DNA of 64,000 bases from Corallium rubrum (Eukaryota > Cnidaria > Anthozoa > Scleralcyonacea > Coralliidae), in contig CAXIUP010000186.1 of NCBI GenBank assembly GCA_964035015.1, positions 62,001-126,000 on the forward strand, written 5' to 3'. This document shows positions 1 through 35,674 of the stretch, in pieces (within the stretch, counting starts at the first letter, position 1; each line of letters starts with the position of its first letter). The notes under the pieces were generated by a model, which was given only the letters and a program-made list of their open reading frames with translations, was not told where the DNA came from and ran no database searches. The position numbers and the translations under genes were made by a program.

Positions 1-3000
1 TTATTGTCCAAGTTTATCCGCTTTATTCGCGTTTATAAGTCGATTGAGGTTTTTAAAGAACGAGACAATATTCTATGTTTATATTGTCCTAGTTTATACA
101 CTTTATTCACGTTTGTAAGTCGAAAGAGGTTCTTATTATCGTCATCTGTGCATCCATACTGTAATAACATATAGTTCTTAGGCAATCAGATGATATGTTT
201 TTATTGTCGTAGTTTAGACGGTCTATTCACGTTTATAAGTGGAATGAGGTTTTTGAAGAACGAGGCAATATTATAGGTTTGTACTGTCCCAGTTTATACC
301 TTCATTCCCGTTTATAAGTGGAATGAGGTGTTTAAACAACGAGGGAATATGATAAGTTTTAATTGTGCCAGTTTGTAGACTTTATTGGCGTTTATAAGTC
401 GAATTAAGTTTTTAAAGAACGAGGCAATATGATGTTTTTATTGTCATAGTTTATACGGTTTTTTCACGTTTATAAGGCGAACGAGCTTTTTAAAGAACGA
501 GGCAACATGATATGTCTTCATTGTGCTAGTTTATACGCTTTATTCACGTTTATAAGTGGAATGAGGTTTTTAAAGAACGAGGCAATATGATATGTTTTTT
601 ATTGCGTTAGTTCATACGCTTCATTCACGTCTATAAGTGGAATGAGGTTTTTGAAGAACGAAGCAATATGATATGTTTTTACTGTCCTAGTTTATCCGCT
701 TTATTCACGTTTATAAGTCGAAAGAGTTTCTTATTGTCGTCATCTGTGCATCTATACTGTAATAAGATATAATTCTTAGGCAATCAGATGATATGTTTTT
801 ATTGTCGTAGTTTAGACGTTTTATTCACGTTTATAAGTGGAATGAGTTTTTTGAAGAACGAGGCAATATTATAGGTTTGTATTGTCCCAGTTTATACCTT
901 CATTCCCGTTTATAAATGGAATGAGGTTTTTAAACAACGAGGGAATATGATAAGTTTTTATTGTGCCAGTTTCTAGACTTTATTCGCGTTTATAAGTCGA
1001 ATGAGGTTTTTAAAGAACGAGGCAATATGATGTTTTTATTGTCGTAGTTTATACGCTTTATTCACGTTTATAAGTCGAATGAGGTTTTTAAAGAACGAGG
1101 CAATATGATGTGTTTTTATTGTGTTACTTTATACACTTCATTTATGTTTATAAGTGGAATGAGGTTTTTGAAGAACGAGGCAATATGATGTGTTTTTATT
1201 GTCCTAGTTTATCTGCTTTATTCGCGTTTATAAGTCAATTCAGGTTTTTAAAGAACGAGGCAATATTCTATCTTTTTATTGTCGTAGTTTATACGGTTTT
1301 TTCTCGTTTATAAGTCGAATGAGGTTTTTAAAGAACGAGGCAATATGATATGTTTTTATTGTGCTAGTTTATACGCTTTATTCACGTTTATAAATGGAAT
1401 GAGGTTTTTAAAGAACGAGGTAATATAGGTTTGTATTGTCCCAGTTTATACCTTCATTCCCGTTTGTAAGTGGAATGAGGTTTTTAAACAACGAGGGAAG
1501 ATGATAAGTTTTTATTGTGCCAGTTTCTAGACTTTATTGGCGTTTATAAGTCGAATTAAGTTTTTAAAGAACGAGGCAATATGATGTTTTTATTGTCATA
1601 GTTTATACGGTTTTTTCACGTTTATAAGGCGAACGAGCTTTTTAAAGAACGAGGCAACATGATATGTCTTCATTGTGCTAGTTTATACGCTTTATTCACG
1701 TTTATAAGTGGAATGAGGTTTTTAAAGAACGAGGCAATATGATATGTTTTTTATTGCGTTAGTTCATACGCTTCATTCACGTCTATAAGTGGAATGAGGT
1801 TTTTGAAGAACGAAGCAATATGATATGTTTTTACTGTCCTAGTTTATCCGCTTTATTCACGTTTATAAGTCGAAAGAGTTTCTTATTGTCGTCATCTGTG
1901 CATCTATACTGTAATAAGATATAATTCTTAGGCAATCAGATCATATGTTTTTATTGTCGTAGTTTAGACGTTTTATTCACGTTTATAAGTGGAATGAGTT
2001 TTTTGAAGAACGAGGCAATATTATAGATTTGTATTGTCCCAGTTTATACCTTCATTCCCGTTTATAAGTGGAATGAGGTTTTTAAACAACGAGGCAATAT
2101 GATATGTTTTTATTGTGTTAGTTTATACGCTTCATTCACGTTTATAAGTGGAATGAGGTTTTTGAAGAACGAAGCAATATGATATGTTTTTACTGTCCTA
2201 GTTTTTCCGCTTTATTCACGTTTATAAGTCGAAAGAGTTTCTTATCCTCGTCATCTGTGCATCTATACTGTAATAAGATATAATTCTTAGGCAATCAGAT
2301 CATATGTTTTTATTGTCGTAGTTTAGACGTTTTATTCACGTTTATAAGTGGAATGAGTTTTTTGAAGAACGAGGCAATATTATAGGTTTGTATTGTCCCA
2401 GTTTATACCTTCATTCCCGTTTATAAGTGGAATGAGGTTTTTAAACAACGAGGGAATATGATAAATTTTTATTGTCGTAGTTTATACGCTTTATTCACGT
2501 TTATAAGTCGAATGAGGTTTTTAAAGAACGAGGCAATATGATATGTTTTTATTGTGCTAGTTTATACGCTTTATTCACGTTTATAAATGGAATGAAGTTT
2601 TTAAAGAACGAGGTAATATTATAGGTTTGTATTGTCCCAGTTTATACCTTCATTCCCGTTTATAAGTGGAATGAGGTTTTTAAACAACGAGGGAAGATGA
2701 TAAGTTTTTATTGTGCCAGTTTCTAGACTTTATTGGCGTTTATAAGTCGAATTAAGTTTTTAAAGAACGAGGCAATATGATGTTTTTATTGTCATAGTTT
2801 ATACGTTTTTTTTCACGTTTATAAGGCGAACGAGCTTTTTAAAGAACGAGGCAACATGATATGTTTTCATTGTGCTAGTTTATACGCTTTATTCACGTTT
2901 ATAAGTGGAATGAGGTTTTTAAAGAACGAGGCAATATGATATGTTTTTTATTGCGTTAGTTTATACGCTTCATTCACGTCTATAAGTGGAATGAGATTTT

Positions 3001-4750: not shown

Positions 4751-6003
4751 TCATAGTGAAGCTGCTGCGGCAGCATCTCGTTTCGGTCTTGGTGTGAACT
4801 CTGGAGCCTTTGGGTTCAGTTGGATGGTCTGTTCTTTGTCACATGCCAATTCTAGTGGGTAAAGGTGTTGAATAGCTCGTTCTAAGTAACCATTACCAGT
4901 TTTCAGTTTGGCTGTTCGTACTGTGCCATCTCTGCCCGTGATGAGTTGGTTGACCACTGCTAGCTTCCACACGTTTCTGGGTTTTTGATCATCCTTGATG
5001 ATGACGACCTCTCCGATGGCAATGCTTGGTTGATTTGGTGTTTCTCTTGCTCGGGATAGGCGATGCTGCTCGCGAAGACCTCGGACATACTCGCGCGTCC
5101 ACCTGTTCCACATCGCTTGTTTACATTTCAGCAAGAATTTAGCTCTCTTCCTCAGGTCTTTCTCTTCTACATGGTATTCTTCTAAGTCGGGTAGATGAGT
5201 TGGGTTGGTGTGGAGGATAGAATTTGGTGGAGGACCGGCAACTGTACGTCATCTTCTAAATAGTTGAGGGGTCGATTGTCTAACACCACTTCTTCTAGCT
5301 CCGTCCAGCTCAGGATACCATTGCCAATAGACCTGTAAAAAGCGTTCTTGAACAGTCCTATCAGTCGTTCGAATTGGCCTCCCCACCAAGGGGCGCTACT
5401 CAAGTTGAAGCGCCATTCGATAGCACGGTTTGCAAGGAGGTTGTGGAGCTTTTCGTCTTCTCTTACTTGTTTTATCCATTTTGCGGCGGCCTTGAAAGTG
5501 GTGGCATTATCTGAATAGATTATCTCGGGTCTCCCACGGCGCGCTATGAATTTCTTTAGGCTGAAGATGAACTCTTTGGTATCTAAGGATTTCACTAAGT
5601 CTAGGTGTACAGCTCTTGTAAGACTGCATGCATACAGGACCAGATAGGCCTTTGCTTCCTTCTTAGGCTTGAGTAAGAACTTGATCGGACCTGCGAAGTC
5701 TACACCGAGTGCTTGGTATGGCGTTGATCCCTGTGTTCTGGTGGTGGGTAGATTTCCAGGTGGTGGGGCTTGATATGCTTTGTCTCGGAACCTCTTGCAA
5801 CCGTCACAGCCACTCCTTATTTCCTTTACCAAGTGACGGAGACGAGGTACCCAATAGGTTTCTCTAACTTTAGCCATTGTGATCCCGATCCTTCCATGTA
5901 GGGTAGAGATGTGTGCTTCGTGTACCACTAGTGCAGTGAACTGGTGCGTGTCAGGCAAATAGATCGGGTATTCTCCAACAATTCTTCCTCGACATTCTAG
6001 CAC
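4751..6003 (-). pseudogene. BEL/Pao integrase and C-terminal domain
   Basis: This is the integrase end of the BEL polyprotein, which joins retroelement cDNA to the target. At 6003-5182 a zinc-binding HHCC-like region (H-x-C-GC motif with CDGCKRF) is followed by a DDE core: Asp in GVDFAGPI, Asp in YSDNATTF and Glu in GGQFERLIG. A separate frame at 5134-4751 continues with a DUF5641-like domain (GEVVIIKDD, then YLERAIQHLYPLE). The two parts lie in different frames, so a frameshift near 5180 separates them. Another interruption lies between 6003 and the upstream RNase H segment. The domain order is that expected for Pao/BEL. Confidence 0.9.
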
Positions 6004-6081: not shown

Positions 6082-8138
6082 TTATTGCGTTTTAATCGGA
6101 CCAGCCTCTCTTTCTTGGGACCGGCTCCTGCAATTATTGATGAAACGACATATCCACGCGCCGATCCTTAATAGTTTAGGAAGCGGGTGTTTGGCGAGCA
6201 ATTGGTCGAACTCCTCTTGCTTGGCTATGGCTATGTTGAAGATCTCTTTCGCTACCTTAGCTTCTGATCTGGTGTCTAGATTTGGTTCTAGTGTTTTGTC
6301 TGGTGGCCACTCAGATGGATTGCTTAACCAAGCTGGACCTCTCTCCACGACCGGTTGTTCACGACATTCCCTCCCCGACTTCCTACATCTGCTGGGTTGT
6401 CCACCGTTGGGACGTGATGCCATGCGATTTGGTCATGCTGTCGGATTTTGTGTACACGATTAGCCACAAACTGACGATACTCACCTTGGTCGTTTATCCA
6501 ATAAAGGGCCACTGTCGAGTCGAGCCAACAGTGAATGGTCACCTGTTGGGTGCTGAGGGCTGCTTGTACGTTGCTCACGAGGTTCGCCGCCATGTGTCCA
6601 GATATCAGCTCAAGGCGAGGAATTGTTAAATTGTGTTTAGCAATTCTTGATTTGGCACAAACAAGTCCTTGGGTGATTCCTTGTTCTTGCTTGACAACAG
6701 CATAAACTGCTGCACATACTCCACAAGAACTTGCATCTCCGAATCCATGCAGAGTGGTTTCTAAAACTGGCTGATGATGTGGTGTGAGCGCTCGAGGAAT
6801 GGTAAAGGTTTCAAGGCGGCTATTCCATTCTTTCCATCGTTTGGCTAGCGGTTCTGGTAGGTTTGCATCCCACGGAATTTTCGCGTCGCAGATGTCACGA
6901 TAAATTAGTTTGCCCGTCAGTGAAGTGGGTGATGCCAGTCCTAACGGATCATATATCTTGGCAAGCTTGGAAAGGACGCCTCTCTTGGTGGTTGGTAAGA
7001 GGGTGACGCTCATCGTGTCTCGTTGTCTATTCCATGGCAAGCCGAGTAGTTTCCCTCCTGGTTCTTCAGCTCCTCCAAGATGACTTTTAGCATAGGTCAT
7101 CTCGTCTGGTCCAGTCGGTACATCGGTTGCTGGTTCCAGCTCTGAGGCGTTTGAATGCCACTTGTGGATGGTAAAGGTTGAATCCTCAAACACTTCAATT
7201 GCGGTTGCTTCCTTTGTTTCGGTTTCTTCTACAGTTGTTCCACCTGTCATCAAGTCATCGACATATAGCCCCTCACGCAGTTCCTTTATTAACTCGGGCT
7301 GTCGATCCTCCCAGCTGTCGAGATGTTGATTTATTACTCCACCGAGGAGAAATGGGGAACAAGTGAGGCCAAATAGTGCTCGGGTGAAGCGGTAAACTTC
7401 AGTTCGGCTACTGTTTGGTGGTTTCCAGTGAAATCGCAACGTGTCCTTTTGTTCCACCTTGATTCTGATTTGTAGAAAGGCTTTCTTTAAATCGCCAGTG
7501 AGAACGGGGTAGAACCTTGCTCGTACGAGGACATCCCACAAGAGGTTCTGGAGTGGAGGCCCTGCATGAAGACAATCATTGAGCGAGGGCTGGTTGTTGC
7601 TTTCTCTTGCTGTTGCATCATAGACGATACGTAATTTAGTACTTTCTGCCTCTTTTCTGCTAACACCTTTGTGTGGAATATAGAACTCCTTCCCGACAGG
7701 CTCTTTGCTCGCAGCTTCGATAACTCCCTGTTGAAGTTGTTCTTGGATAATGTTGTCATACTCTGTATACTGGTTGGTTCGCTCTAGCTTTCTGACCAGT
7801 TGCTCGAGGCGTCGCTTGCTGCCAGACTCATTCGTGGGTAGTGATGGATGATTTCCTTTCCAGGGAAGTTTGGTTTCATACAAGCCGGCTTCATCTCTCT
7901 GGAGCTGCTCCTTAAACTCTTGGTACACCGTCAGCTGGTCGTTCTCATTTCTATCAGCGAGGCCGAGAACGTCTAGGGCACATAACTGCTCGTAATCCAT
8001 GCTGGAAGATTGGGTTAACAGGATAGGGCTTTCTGCTTCTTCTCTTCCAGAGGACATGACTGTCCATCCAAGCAGTGTTCTTTCAGCAACTGGTTGTCCT
8101 GGTGACCCAACCTTTTGGGCTGTTGTCGTCTTTATCAT
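6082..8138 (-). pseudogene. BEL/Pao reverse transcriptase-RNase H
   Basis: A 604-residue open frame (8138-6324) starts within the linker after the protease. RT motifs are visible: LRIVYDATA, TGDLKKAFLQI, LFGLTCSPFLL and the catalytic YVDDLMTGG. The peptidase-A17/RNase H-like part follows, with FGDASSCGVCAAVY and WLDSTVALYWI, ending at NPADVGSRG. The frame then shifts, and 6423-6082 continues in another frame (WLSNPSEWPPD is typical of the post-RNase H linker). The RT core looks intact, but the polyprotein cannot be read through. Confidence 0.93.
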
Positions 8139-30473: not shown

Positions 30474-30482
30474 TTTCACCAC

Positions 30483-30816
30483 TATGGTGGCCGAGCATTG
30501 CCACTGTTGTTTTTTTAATTTTTATTTTAATTTTAAAATTAAAATAAAAATTAAAAATAAACTAAAATGAAATACAAAGTAAATTTATTTTAATTTTAAA
30601 ATTAAAAATAAACTAAAATGAAATACAAAGTAAATTTATTTTAATTTTAAAATTAAAAATAAACTAAAATGAAATACAAAGTAAATTACCATCGTAAATA
30701 CACATCGACTTAAATTTAATATGCAATTGCAATGAAAATGAAAGTAAAAGTTAATTTGCCCATGGCCGAGGGCTGCCACTACCATAATTCACTGCGACCT
30801 CATTAAAATTCCTGCA
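30483..30816 (+). repeat. IS3-like TIR, left
   Basis: 334 bp, inverted match to 35373-35664. It contains three tandem copies of a 62-bp unit (AAACTAAAATGAAATACAAA core), of which the right repeat has fewer. The ATG of the transposase is 21 bp beyond its inner end, so the promoter probably lies in the repeat. Confidence 0.93.
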
Positions 30817-31784
30817 TACATAAATATTTCGACAAAATGGCGGACAATTCTGACATGAGAGAAGCACCTTGGAAAGATGATGGAAATCTTAAAGAAGCTT
30901 TGTCAACATACGTTCAGAAAGGATTACAAAGAAGAGAAGTACTAGATTCTGTTGCTCGCGACTTTTCTCAGTACACGTGGAGTCTTAGGTCGCTCAATAG
31001 ACGCCTTCGTTATTTTGAATTGTATTACAATGACCAAAATATTGGAGTTGCGGATGTGATCGAAGCGGTGCAAACTGAATTGAACGGCCCAGGTAAGCTT
31101 TTGGGCTATAGGGCCATGCACAAGAAGATTAGGATAGAACATGGTATTAATGTTACCAGGGACAAAGTTTATGATGTGATGAGCGAGCTTGACCCAGAGG
31201 GACTTGAAACAAGGGGTGGCGTTGGTGGCAAGAAAAAAAGACAGAAGGGCCATTTCACTACAAGAGGAACAAATTGAGTGCATGCATTTCATGGTCATGA
31301 TAAGCTGATGGGGTACCAAAACTCCACCTTCCCATTGGCTATCTATGGCTGCATTGACACTGCCAGTAGAAAGCTGTTATCGTTAAACGTTTGGGTGTCA
31401 AATTCTGACCCAAAATTAATTGGAAAGTGGTACCTTGAATACCTTTATAAAACAAGATTAATGTCAGCCATGCTGCGAGTGGACAAGGGCACTGAGACGG
31501 GAGTCATGGCAACTATGCATGCTTTCTTACAAAGAAACCATGGAGATATGGATCCCCATGACACTGTTGTCTATGGTCCTTCCACCTCTAATCAGGTAAA
31601 TTCTCCATTGTTTGGTGACTAACATATTTAATTGCAGCTAGATTTAATTTTTTTCTGCTATATTACTTTTGAAGATTGAAAGATGGTGGAAGGAGTTGCA
31701 TGAAAGAATGGAAAAGTATTTCAAAGTCCATTTGAGGTGGCTGAAAGACCAGGGTCATTATGATCCTAACAATGAAACTGATAG

Positions 31785-32633
31785 GTATTTAATACAAATA
31801 ATGGTGAATATCCATCCATCAATGTATTTCATAACATGCCAATGCATCTTTGAACAGATTTGGCAACCAGAAAAAATTATCGGATGAAGTTGAGCATGAT
31901 AGCTTGTGTTATCAACGCCGAAGTGTTATCTGTCGAAGTGTTATCTGTCGAAGTCCAAGGCTGAGGCAGATAATACCAACCGAGGCTTGATAACACAAGC
32001 TATCATGCAAAAACCGAATTCAATAATTGTTTTATTATACAATTATAAATATAGAAGCCTTTAGAAAGTCTTTTACAAAGTTAAACAAAAATGTTATATT
32101 CATACCGTCTTCAGTTCGAGGTTCGCTTCCTTTTTTCTCTTTCAAATACAATTTTCTCTTTCAAATACTGCTTTAAACTCTAACAGCTGTATGTGTAGCT
32201 CGCTTGGTTTTTCTTTGTGACTTTGGCGTCAACAAAACGTACCAAATTCGCCGAATTAATCCGCTTCTGATCTTCACTCCTGAGGACGGCCACCATGTTT
32301 GTTTTGTTCAAACCTCAGACAATTTTCAATGTCGTGTAGGTGGCAAGACATTGACAATTGTCTGTAGGTCATTAACCAATCAGAATCAAGATTGCACCAA
32401 TATTGTAATACTCATTAATGGGCTCTTCTTGGGTTGAACAGTATGTCTGTCTATGTCACTTTTTAACCCATTAACTGGCAATGAGCCCAAATCCACCTAC
32501 TTCAGTATTTTACTGTCTAATACCAGATGATTTTACTCATCAGTGGAAGAGTACTGCCAGTTAATGGGTTAAGTTCTAAGGGATGCCAGAAAGGATAAGT
32601 TGTTAAATTGACCTCAATTTTTTATGTTTCAAG
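31785..32633. other. Intron 2 of transposase, with small repeats
   Basis: Contains an inverted pair GATAGCTTGTGTTATCAA (31897 and 31980-32005), tandem CGAAGTGTTATCTGT units, and a 102-bp TTAA-flanked MITE at 32467-32568. No coding sequence seen. Confidence 0.6.
32467..32568. mobile_element. 102-bp MITE with TTAA duplication
   Basis: Inverted ends CCCATTAACTGGCA are flanked by TTAA at 32463-32466 and 32569-32572. A tiny non-autonomous element, piggyBac- or Kolobok-type by duplication. Confidence 0.82.
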
Positions 32634-33743
32634 AATGCTTCTATCTTTTGTTATGATACCATTGGTTCAGAAAGAACTGGATATTTTTCGAAAGACTGTG
32701 TGGAACACTCACAGAATAAGAGTACAAAAGGATGTAGTTTTACCTAGTGGGGTACCTAATCACATATATAGCTTCCCGGATGAGTATGATCTGGAAGAAT
32801 GTGGTATGTCATAATATGTTTGTCAATTCATTTTTGCATTCATGTCATTGTTCTCATATTATATGCATTTTTTGTTAGTCATTAATTATAGCTGGCATGC
32901 CTTTACAGCCAACTTCAACTTAATGGACAAGCGTTGATTAACACCATCTTATTTGCTAAATATAGCGACCTAAATTTGTGTTTTTCCATTGCCAGTTGTA
33001 ATAAGAAAGATGGTATGAGAAATTGACTGCACCCACTGTAAAAGGTCTACAGTTAGTCTATTTAATTCATTAGTTTTTTTGCCAACTCTATCTTGAGTTC
33101 ACTAGCAAATCTACATAATTTATTGTAGAGCTGCTAATGAATTCAAAATAACAATTATAGCAATAAAGCATGAAAATACATTAGGGTAGACATCAATATA
33201 GGAAGGTCTAATTTGCATCAGTTTAAATACAGGGTATTTATAACCCTACTGGACAGTTGGAGGCGCAACCAGTTCGAGACCATTTATAGGGAATGCTCAT
33301 CCAAAGAGCACACATGAGCATTCTCTAACCTCTGCGTTTTGATGCTCTATTTTACAGGCCTTAAAATAACTGAAGAACAGTTGAAGGAGGCAGCTACCCA
33401 TTCTGGAGTTTTGACAATATCAGACGACTATTTAGAACCAAATGTTAGAGCTGAATGTGAAAGGCTGATACCTGACCATAACACTATCAAACCACATGAA
33501 TGCAGAACTGCGTACTTATATTTGAAACATCATTATAACAGTTAACTTTAATATTTTATTATAGTGTAGATATTCATAGTCAATGTTACTACATTAACTA
33601 GTGCCAGTTGCTGAAATTGTTCACTTACAGTTTTTAACAAAAGAATATTAACCAAAAAAGTGAATTGATGCATTGAATAATACAGTATTAGTACTCAATT
33701 GCATAAATTTAACAAAACACAATATTTGTTGAACTTATAATTT

Positions 33744-35306
33744 TTAAAAAAAACACTCAATAGCTACTGTGGACAAATTTCCTGTACAGAACTGGTAATT
33801 ATCATCTACTAGTTGCTCAGATGCAATTTCCGGATCATATAAGGTATATCCAGACCCTTGAATATCCAACACAAGCTTTCTTTCTGACTTCTCATATGTG
33901 TAATGAGAAAAGGCCTCTGCTTTATCAGCAATAATGTTATCCTTTTCACGTCTATCACCAGTGTTGTTTAAGTATTTTACAAATTCACCACTGATAAATT
34001 CCTCCAATGTGACAACTTCACCTGTGCCCATTTTTCCCATGAACACTTTGTTGAATTCAAAGACTTCACCAAACTCTAGCAAATTCTCTTTCTTCACCTT
34101 CTCCTTCAGCTGACTAGCAAGATTCCTAGCAAGATAATGCATCTGGACAGATTTTTGTGCATGTGCATCTTCAGTTTGATTCATTTCTTGAAGTATCTTC
34201 TTGGTATGATCTGTGTATTTCTTGACAACCCATGTTACATCTTTAAATCCCTCGGTGATACTGGTGGCTTTGAAGGCCTCACGAAAACCACCACTTGCAA
34301 ATGGTTTATCAGACACCATGAACTCTGCCTCACATGGAATCAATGACCACTCCATACAATTCAAGTCAAATTTGTATATTTTGATGGTCACAGATTTCTT
34401 ATCTAATTTTGCTCCAAGTTTTACCATGTCCTTGATCGACAAACTCTTTGGGTAGAATGATTGGAGTTTTTTGTCTGGTTCTTTAACTGGGCTTGGTGCA
34501 GAAGGCTTCTCTATACGGGGCTTTTTTACTCTGTTTTCCTACAAGAGAACATCAAATGTTAACATCAAATGGGTACCAGGCATTTGCAGCATATTTCCAA
34601 AGTCATGCGTATGTAATTATATTATTGAGAAAAAATTATTTTGAGACATATGGTGGTGGTGGTGGTGGTGGTGGTGGTGGTGGTGGTGGTGGTGGTGGTG
34701 GTGGTGGTGGTGGGTTAGCAAGGAATCTGCAATTGCAAAATAAACAAGCTGACTTTTCTGGCTAAAATAGGCATTGATTGGTCCATAATGGGTGGTGGTG
34801 GTGGGTGGTGGTGGTGGGTGGTGGTGGTGGGTGGTGGTGGTGGGTGGTGGTGGTGGGTGGTGGTGGTGTGTGTGTAGGGGGGGTGTGCTAAAGCAATAGC
34901 GGGCCGAAATCTATTAATGCCAACCCATAACTCCCAATTTAGATCTGGTGATCAAGTACTCTGGTGGGTGGAAGGTGGGAGGGGTAAGGGGTACTTGTAT
35001 AAAGCCCTCATTTCCCCCACATTATAACCCCTAGATCAGCACAAGTCAACATAAAAATACATGTATAAGTGAATGATATATGTCACAATGACTCACATCA
35101 CTTGAGTCCAGGTCTACCACATCCTCTGTTTTCTCTCCCTTTGTAAATCTACGATTGTATTTTTGCTGTTTCCCGCTAACATCAGCACTTATTCTCTGGA
35201 CTACTACTTCATCTTTACCACCATCTTTATTGTCCCCTTTACCGCCCTTTCCTTTTGCGGCTCTTTTCTGTTTTTGTTTGTTTGCAAATTGTCGCCATTC
35301 AGCCAT
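33744..35306 (-). CDS. Transposon-encoded alpha-kinase
   Basis: Exon 1 (35306-35097) ends at GTGAGT. Exon 2 (34538-33744) follows a TTGTAG acceptor in phase 0, giving 334 residues with no stop. Residues 1-70 are rich in Lys/Gly and basic; after that, exon 2 holds an alpha-kinase (MHCK/eEF2K-type) domain. Motifs are the glycine loop FASGGFREAFKA, the ATP-binding lysine region VTWVVKKYTD, VTLEEFISGEFVKYLNNTG, AFSHYTYEKSERKLVLDIQG, YDPEIAS, and FCTGNLSTVAIECFF near the end. The protein stops before the usual zinc-binding CxxxC tail, so either the domain is short or a last exon is missed. Alpha-kinases phosphorylate Ser/Thr. The gene reads inward from the right inverted repeat toward the transposase. 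The intron contains a (TGG)n tract. I see no frameshift. Confidence 0.85.
34651..34870. repeat. (TGG)n minisatellites in kinase intron
   Basis: (GGT)n at 34651-34712, and GGTGGTGGTGGGT units at 34791-34868, separated by about 80 bp. Poly-Gly ORFs here are artefacts. Confidence 0.97.
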
Positions 35307-35372
35307 GTTATTTTATTCACAACGAAGACGAAGCACGTGGCGCCATATGCCCGCACCTAGCCTGCGAACGGG

Positions 35373-35664
35373 TGCAGGAATTTTAATGAGGTCGCAGTGA
35401 ATTATGGTAGTGGCAGCCCTCGGCCATGGGCAAATTAACTTTTACTTTAATTTTCATTGCAATTGCATATTAAATTTAAGTCGATGTGTATTTACGATGG
35501 TAATTTACTTTGTATTTCATTTTAGTTTATTTTTAATTTTAAAATTAAAATAAATTTACTTTGTATTTCATTTTAGTTTATTTTTAATTTTTATTTTACT
35601 TTTAAAATTAAAATAATTTTGAAAAAAACAACAAAAACGACAGTGGCAATGCTCGGCCACCATA
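35373..35664 (-). repeat. IS3-like TIR, right
   Basis: Inverted match to 30483-30816. The kinase ATG (35306) lies 67 bp inside its inner end, so it probably supplies the promoter. Confidence 0.93.
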
Positions 35665-35674
35665 CACCACGAGA

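Follow-up and report, generated by a model that had tools for sequence, protein, structure and literature searches.

The window analyzed here, 64,000 nucleotides of the Corallium rubrum assembly GCA_964035015.1 (contig CAXIUP010000186.1, positions 62,001 to 126,000), holds a transposon that spans 30483..35664 (5182 bp) with the termini TATGGTGGCC..GGCCACCATA. It contains a plus-strand transposase gene and a minus-strand alpha-kinase gene, which lie tail to tail, both inside one inverted-repeat element. We propose that this is a decayed copy of an IS3EU element, that the autonomous form is a two-gene system, and that the kinase serves the element as an accessory factor. We give this statement as a whole a probability of about 0.7. 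The identity of the element and of its two-gene system (transposase and alpha-kinase) is close to certain.

The outermost 24 nt of the element are perfect inverted repeats (TATGGTGGCCGAGCATTGCCACTG), and the inverted-repeat arms at 30591-30816 and 35373-35598 are 98% identical over 226 nt. The left terminal inverted repeat (30483..30816, plus strand) begins with TATGGTGGCCGAG and contains three AT-rich 51-bp internal repeats. The right one (35373..35664, minus strand) terminates in GGCCACCATA. Repeat and terminus analysis placed CACCAC on both flanks (30477..30482 and 35665..35670, unstranded) as a perfect 6-bp target-site duplication. An earlier note on this DNA had located the kinase gene wholly between inverted repeats with this duplication, and that description stands. 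Elements of the IS3EU/GingerRoot type are described as having TA..TA termini, usually 6-bp duplications and an IS3/IS481-like integrase core (PMC10045372). The window element has these features in common with them; the word kinase does not occur in that paper. The termini of the window element and of 12 of 20 further loci fetched from the genome are TATGGTGG..CCACCATA or near variants. Perfect 6-mers flank 12 further copies, and long terminal inverted repeats (169–374 nt) occur in 15 of the 20 loci. The IS3/IS481-like DDE integrase core is recognized through HTH_21 and rva_4 matches, which fall under the curated Pfam cut-offs in the window and in the fetched copy L010; in the distant relatives L029–L031, rva_4 scores 104–131 bits, above the cut-off of 26. 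Judged by its termini, repeats, duplication and predicted integrase-type transposase, the element fits the IS3EU superfamily.

The genome searched comprises 474 Mb in 312 contigs. We scored 150 of 161 candidates in the kinase search, 150 of 450 in the transposase search and 129 of 515 in a search for HECT domains, so the lists are lower bounds. At least 144 alpha-kinase matches, merged to at least 131 loci, and at least 150 transposase matches were listed. The transposases form a close class (mostly 50–99% identity) and a distant class (34–48%). A convergent alpha-kinase lies within 8 kb of 87 of the 104 close-class transposases listed, versus 0 of the 46 distant-class ones. The number expected by chance is 0.48 for all 104, and the linkage is thus about 180 times chance. 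Within 40 kb the counts are 94 of 104 and 1 of 46. When only the nearest partner was counted, with the close class taken at 48.5% identity or more, 84 of 103 had a convergent kinase within 8 kb, 2 had a kinase pointing the same way as the transposase, and the remaining 17 had none; in the distant class 46 of 47 were without a kinase within 8 kb. The exception, C150:635612 (48% identity), is a partial match in L028, a normal kinase element; once the kinase of L028 had been noticed, this copy was reassigned to the close class, as in the counts of 104 and 46. Pairing of kinase and transposase is the rule for the close class. Counted from the kinases, a convergent transposase lies within 8 kb of 87 of the 131 listed loci (85 by nearest partner). 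Since most kinase loci adjoin such a transposase, they have the appearance of element tools rather than host genes. The idea that such a kinase belongs to the regular equipment of these elements, and that this accounts for an expansion of alpha-kinases, is thereby borne out for the close class, the second part for most loci.

Six kinase loci with the highest scores (151–166 bits) are different. They form three close pairs (C1:3243392 and C1:3267737; C23:13999520 and C23:14006679; C46:6702475 and C46:6722251) with no transposase within 8 kb. They are likely host genes, perhaps tandem duplicates. Their existence would fit a reading in which two transposon ends have come to flank a host alpha-kinase gene by chance. 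However, five of these six, together with L016, occupy one branch of an unrooted tree (support 0.995), apart from the element kinases of the same genome. The host-type branch joins next to L017 (support 0.885); L005, the sixth, gave no match. With the linkage at about 180 times chance, we give chance flanking practically no credence. That a host kinase merely came to lie next to transposon ends is refuted by the occurrence of the two-gene unit at many sites with different duplications.

The anatomy of other copies was studied in 20 kinase loci of 10 kb each. These are ranks 7–26 by score, the six highest having been set aside, and are not a random sample. Kinase exon 1 of the window has a tblastn match in 16 of them, a convergent transposase matches in 17, and inverted repeats span both genes in 15. 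In 12 loci, termini of the TATGGTGG type are accompanied by a perfect 6-bp duplication; the terminus search called for TA at either end plus a repeat of 6 bp, and the inverted repeats were detected independently. Both genes are present in L009, where inverted repeats were not found. L012 has a weak, non-convergent transposase match within its 10 kb and a close-class copy 10.1 kb off. L016 holds a different alpha-kinase with no match to the window exon. The transposase lies at the edge of L023, and in L024 none was matched. Inverted repeats without a perfect 6-bp duplication (only 6-mers were sought) occur in L014 and L017, and L021 is cut by the end of the locus.

Together with the window, the 12 loci provide 13 duplications. 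Positions 1 and 6 are G or C in all 13, position 5 is A or T in all 13, and position 2 is A in 11. From this base pattern the target consensus is S-A-S-S-W-S; the G+C content of the window is 37%. Copies L010 and L011 are identical in the compared kinase domain and transposase exon, and one residue differs elsewhere. Their duplications differ (GAGCTG and CACGTC), and these near-identical copies are therefore recent, separate insertions. A genome search with the inverted repeats of the window element gave 44 matches (24 of 24 candidates scored), of which the element's own two ends alone matched at 100%. The next-best matches have 68% identity, so the copy search that the earlier note had proposed recovered the element itself and no second copy of its family. 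This inverted-repeat family is single-copy in the genome searched. The 68% ends are inverted and about 29 kb apart (C82:2698779-2727737), with one transposase and one kinase between them; they probably represent one element opened by later insertions. The window copy is broken, but its two-gene system is numerous and recently mobile.

Exon 1 of the window kinase (35092..35306, minus strand) includes the start and the first part of the N-terminal module; the remaining N-terminal domain is absent. Exon 2 (33744..34538, minus strand) encodes the linker and the kinase domain and has a premature stop. Two (TGG)n microsatellite arrays lie inside the intron (34650..34868, unstranded). The minus-strand gene matches PF02816 at 102 bits (curated cut-off 21.3, E=5e-29), and the alpha-kinase fold is recognized as well, in agreement with the identity first assigned to the gene. 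Its description as a stop-free, phase-consistent, two-exon working gene could not be maintained. Exon 2 ends with ..AIECFF, upstream of the C-terminal zinc motif (HxCNxxC), which 51 of 56 relatives have in the form HxC..xC. The motif is gone from the window copy through a frameshift and substitutions: a remnant in another frame reads KNYKFNKYC, with the His and the first Cys replaced, versus KNHKCNKYC in the relative P0001 (97% identical, of a different source). About 65 residues of the relative P0010 (RIGPREF..CDILAGERGPS..FYVRF) are also absent. A tblastn search of this N-terminal piece, taken from P0010 and P0012, against the element gave E=3.7 at best.

Transposase exon 1 (30837..31595, plus strand) carries the HTH_21-like region and the integrase core according to profile matches, with a donor GTAA read from the sequence. 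Frame translation, with splice sites placed by eye, suggests exon 2 (31675..31784), which bears the E of ..NQ|IERWW, exon 3 (32634..32803) and exon 4 with the stop codon (33358..33545), all on the plus strand. An in-frame TGA interrupts exon 1 at 31275-31277. The window transposase reads FHGHDKL where L010 reads LDGHDKL. We take the motif to be DGxDKL, with the DDE residues placed by eye, and the window transposase presumably lacks its first catalytic D. On sequence grounds the window copy is dead, because the transposase is interrupted by a TGA and is missing a catalytic D, the N-terminal domain of the kinase is truncated and its zinc motif is lost. The last two defects rule out the window copy as an intact kinase system. 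Within the transposase intron, a palindromic stretch GATAGCTTGTGTTATCA..TGATAACACAAGCTATC was seen by eye at 31892-32010; it is perhaps a small nested element.

Intact relatives of the kinase are about 400–440 residues long. They begin with a conserved N-terminal domain for which Pfam has no name; a linker follows, and then an alpha-kinase domain that includes the zinc motif. In this N-terminal domain, and in being borne by a transposon, the element kinases differ from the TRPM6/7, eEF2K, MHCK and ALPK kinases. Of 212 relative proteins, 133 have at least 380 residues, and 113 of those 133 carry the N-terminal signature. Linkers and motifs were surveyed in 56 representatives of 100 linkers; percentages apply to proteins with a recognized N-terminal domain. 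The catalytic motifs are retained in 50–55 of the 56, and about half of the linkers have basic clusters resembling a nuclear localization signal (NLS) and SPxK sites. Whole-model fold searches were filled by the kinase domain, and the absence of the N-terminal domain from their lists is uninformative, since it was not folded alone.

Both the kinase and the transposase are under purifying selection between families. For the pair L018/L020, the ratio of nonsynonymous to synonymous substitution rates (dN/dS) is 0.145 for the kinase (220 codons) and 0.203 for the transposase (71 codons). Among saturated pairs, the kinase (171 pairs) has median proportions of synonymous and nonsynonymous differences (pS/pN) of 0.82/0.36, and the transposase (173 pairs) has 0.84/0.30. 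The selection set left out L007 and L008 (the places of L017 and L009), L001–L004, L006 and L016; L012 was dropped in addition from the transposase comparison. L005 gave no match in this set, and the transposase set includes L029 and L030 of the distant class. Kinase and transposase distances correlate over 11 families (r=0.61; 45 of 100,000 permutations in a Mantel test). One copy per family was used (n=11), and the near-duplicates L009, L011, L013–L015, L021, L024 and L025 were omitted, as was L012.

A host kinase captured by an ancestral element might also ride along without helping it. The documented capture of genes by fungal transposons (PMC12730594, as far as available) would fit such a passenger, as would the 0 of 46 distant-class transposases with a kinase within 8 kb and the weak constraint in some close kinase pairs. 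A neutral passenger would decay, however, and the purifying selection on the kinase between families resembles that on the transposase. The retention of the catalytic motifs, the fixed convergent order and the parallel divergence over 11 families also argue against it. Because of selection and linkage together, we disfavor a useless passenger and consider it highly improbable.

In the mechanism that we favor, the autonomous form would have two genes facing each other, one for a DDE transposase and the other for an alpha-kinase made up of N-terminal domain, linker and kinase. The transposase would move the element into S-A-S-S-W-S targets. The kinase, perhaps nuclear by virtue of its linker, would phosphorylate the transposase or the chromatin at the element, and this phosphorylation would license movement of the element or lift its silencing. 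Substrate choice may lie with the N-terminal domain, and the SPxK sites in the linker may couple the kinase to the cell cycle. Kinase fragments of TRPM6/7 reportedly phosphorylate histones inside the nucleus (PMC13143021, in the parts available), and therefore such chemistry would be available to the alpha-kinase family. An anti-silencing role would have a parallel in the TET/JBP enzyme of fungal elements, which is thought to counter methylation-based silencing (PMC12730594, passages available). From sequence features, it is quite conceivable, at somewhat less than even odds, that the kinase is a nuclear accessory factor of this kind, acting on the transposase or chromatin to the benefit of the element, and not a host gene caught by chance.

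The kinase could instead serve the element through host translation or signaling, for example as an eEF2-kinase-like brake or a stress signal. Besides TRPM7 kinase (106 bits), the family profile also recognizes myosin heavy chain kinase (94 bits) and eEF2 kinase (84 bits), and some relatives are named eEF2 kinase in their sources. These names look automatic, however, and a nuclear protein is weakly suggested by the NLS-like clusters and SPxK sites, which roughly half of the linkers contain. We regard this role as unlikely.

Several observations weigh against our proposal of an accessory kinase. The basic cluster is missing from 27 of the 56 linkers and the SPxK motif from 21, so that these are weak signals. 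L018/L020 is the sole kinase pair with moderate synonymous divergence (dS), and pairs between families are saturated. Very close kinase pairs have dN/dS of 0.25–0.33 at dS of 0.008–0.026. Kinase pairs with L009 give 0.68–1.0, which fits a decaying copy and also weak short-term constraint. Nor does the kinase invariably stand next to such a transposase: 44 of 131 loci, among them the six host-type top scorers, lack a convergent one within 8 kb, and 7 of the 44 have one within 40 kb. Of the 10 close copies that remain unpaired at 40 kb, 8 are without a kinase within that distance, and the other 2 have only a kinase that points the same way as the transposase. Distant-class transposases exist without an alpha-kinase. 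Finally, one rust alpha-kinase is among the proteins under diversifying selection (PMC4150398, in the part available).

The pairing itself has already been mentioned for fungi. According to the available passages of Kojima 2025 (PMC12730594), a TET/JBP gene separates the transposase gene from the alpha-kinase gene in every TET+ IS3EU family of the fungi examined. The alpha-kinases of rust-fungus IS3EU elements are mentioned there, the term occurring twice in the main text with one gene-order passage. Like those fungal elements, the coral elements have TAYGG..CCRTA termini, inverted repeats of more than 30 bp, a 6-bp duplication and an oppositely oriented transposase and alpha-kinase. Unlike the coral copies as described here, which were given no systematic search for a third gene, the fungal ones have the TET/JBP gene in between. 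The fungal kinases are likened to ours by description and not by sequence comparison. Styx of Zymoseptoria is said to derive from an IS3EU element with two proteins, one of them a DDD/E transposase; it has two further coding sequences, and the passages available do not name an alpha-kinase (PMC10853768). A talk of 2012 described IS3EU-derived fungal elements with five to six proteins and host-derived proteins in transposons (PMC3520738, in the part available). In the available text of PMC5753468, IS3EU is merely listed as a superfamily.

In rusts the alpha-kinase family is strongly expanded, and it is absent in Microbotryomycetes; the PF02816 row gives 79, 39 and 5 for three genomes and zero for seven (PMC4469406, in the parts available). 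Rust fungi and the coral are alike in this lineage-specific inflation of PF02816, which was reported for the rusts as a gene-family expansion. The alpha-kinase family also stands in a table of domains in the available part of PMC5295586. Among the titles and abstracts listed on alpha-kinases with transposons, on IS3EU (20 of 35) and on GingerRoot, we found no animal case; a subscription or Repbase report may exist. As far as this search reaches, the animal system, its scale and the selection on it are new. An animal gene-family expansion is recast as a transposon trait at 87 of the 131 listed alpha-kinase loci, those with a convergent transposase within 8 kb. A protein kinase under selection in a cut-and-paste transposon also makes the function of transposon accessory enzymes testable.

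Searches for homologues of the window kinase gave 135 proteins, and those with the family profile gave 423 (from the 7999 best candidates); 120 were listed in each case. Among the matches listed, 16 of the 17 organism-named proteins are cnidarian (corals, sea anemones and soft corals) and the other is from the hemichordate Saccoglossus. The N-terminal signature CDxLAxxxGPS is present in 12 of these 17. The signature-bearing proteins include some named TRPM6-like, alpha-protein kinase 2-like, vwkA-like, myosin heavy chain kinase B- or D-like and eEF2 kinase. As variously named proteins share the signature, several of these database names are misleading. Pattern matches to relatives in viral contigs (26) and in prokaryote genome contigs (145) gave 0 confirmed cases in each set. 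In a TRPM study of 2026 (PMC13143021), some cnidarian sequences labeled TRPM6-like are described as kinase-only and wrongly annotated, and the TRPM6/7 kinase is derived from ALPK2/3; "transpos" has 0 occurrences in that study. The element kinase may give an identity to such kinase-only cnidarian genes.

A still wider reading is that IS3EU-like elements are a modular platform, in which a transposase is combined with a convergent, host-manipulating signaling enzyme, and that they, rather than duplication of host genes, are the main source of eukaryotic alpha-kinase expansions. If so, the alpha-kinase would be the enzyme of one ancient clade (in cnidarians, a hemichordate and perhaps the rust-fungus elements), acting as a mobile anti-silencing or licensing enzyme, and a HECT ubiquitin-ligase-like gene would take its place in some distant-class copies. 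We consider this doubtful. Over all 131 listed HECT matches (an earlier comparison used 42 of them), one lies within 8 kb of 2 of the 46 distant-class copies and of 4 of the 104 close-class copies, two of these four being non-convergent; 0.2 and 0.5 were expected. HECT is therefore not specific to the distant class, and the small number of distant copies that adjoin it lowered our estimate for the modular platform. In L030, an open reading frame (ORF) at 7401-8000 (minus strand), downstream of a distant-class transposase, looked HECT-like by eye but matched no Pfam profile at E-values up to 0.1. The 8 kb around one of the two HECT sites of the distant class revealed no inverted repeats that span the pair. 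At the first site, L031, a transposase at 1553-2944 (plus strand; rva_4, 131 bits) faces a convergent HECT-like ORF at 4918-5955 (minus strand; PF00632, 39 bits). At the second, a transposase at C8:15598514 (plus strand) is followed by C8:15601282-15601707 (minus strand), and the spacing is equal at both sites, about 2.47 kb. Given these two equally spaced copies, the distant-class transposase and the HECT gene may form another two-gene element.
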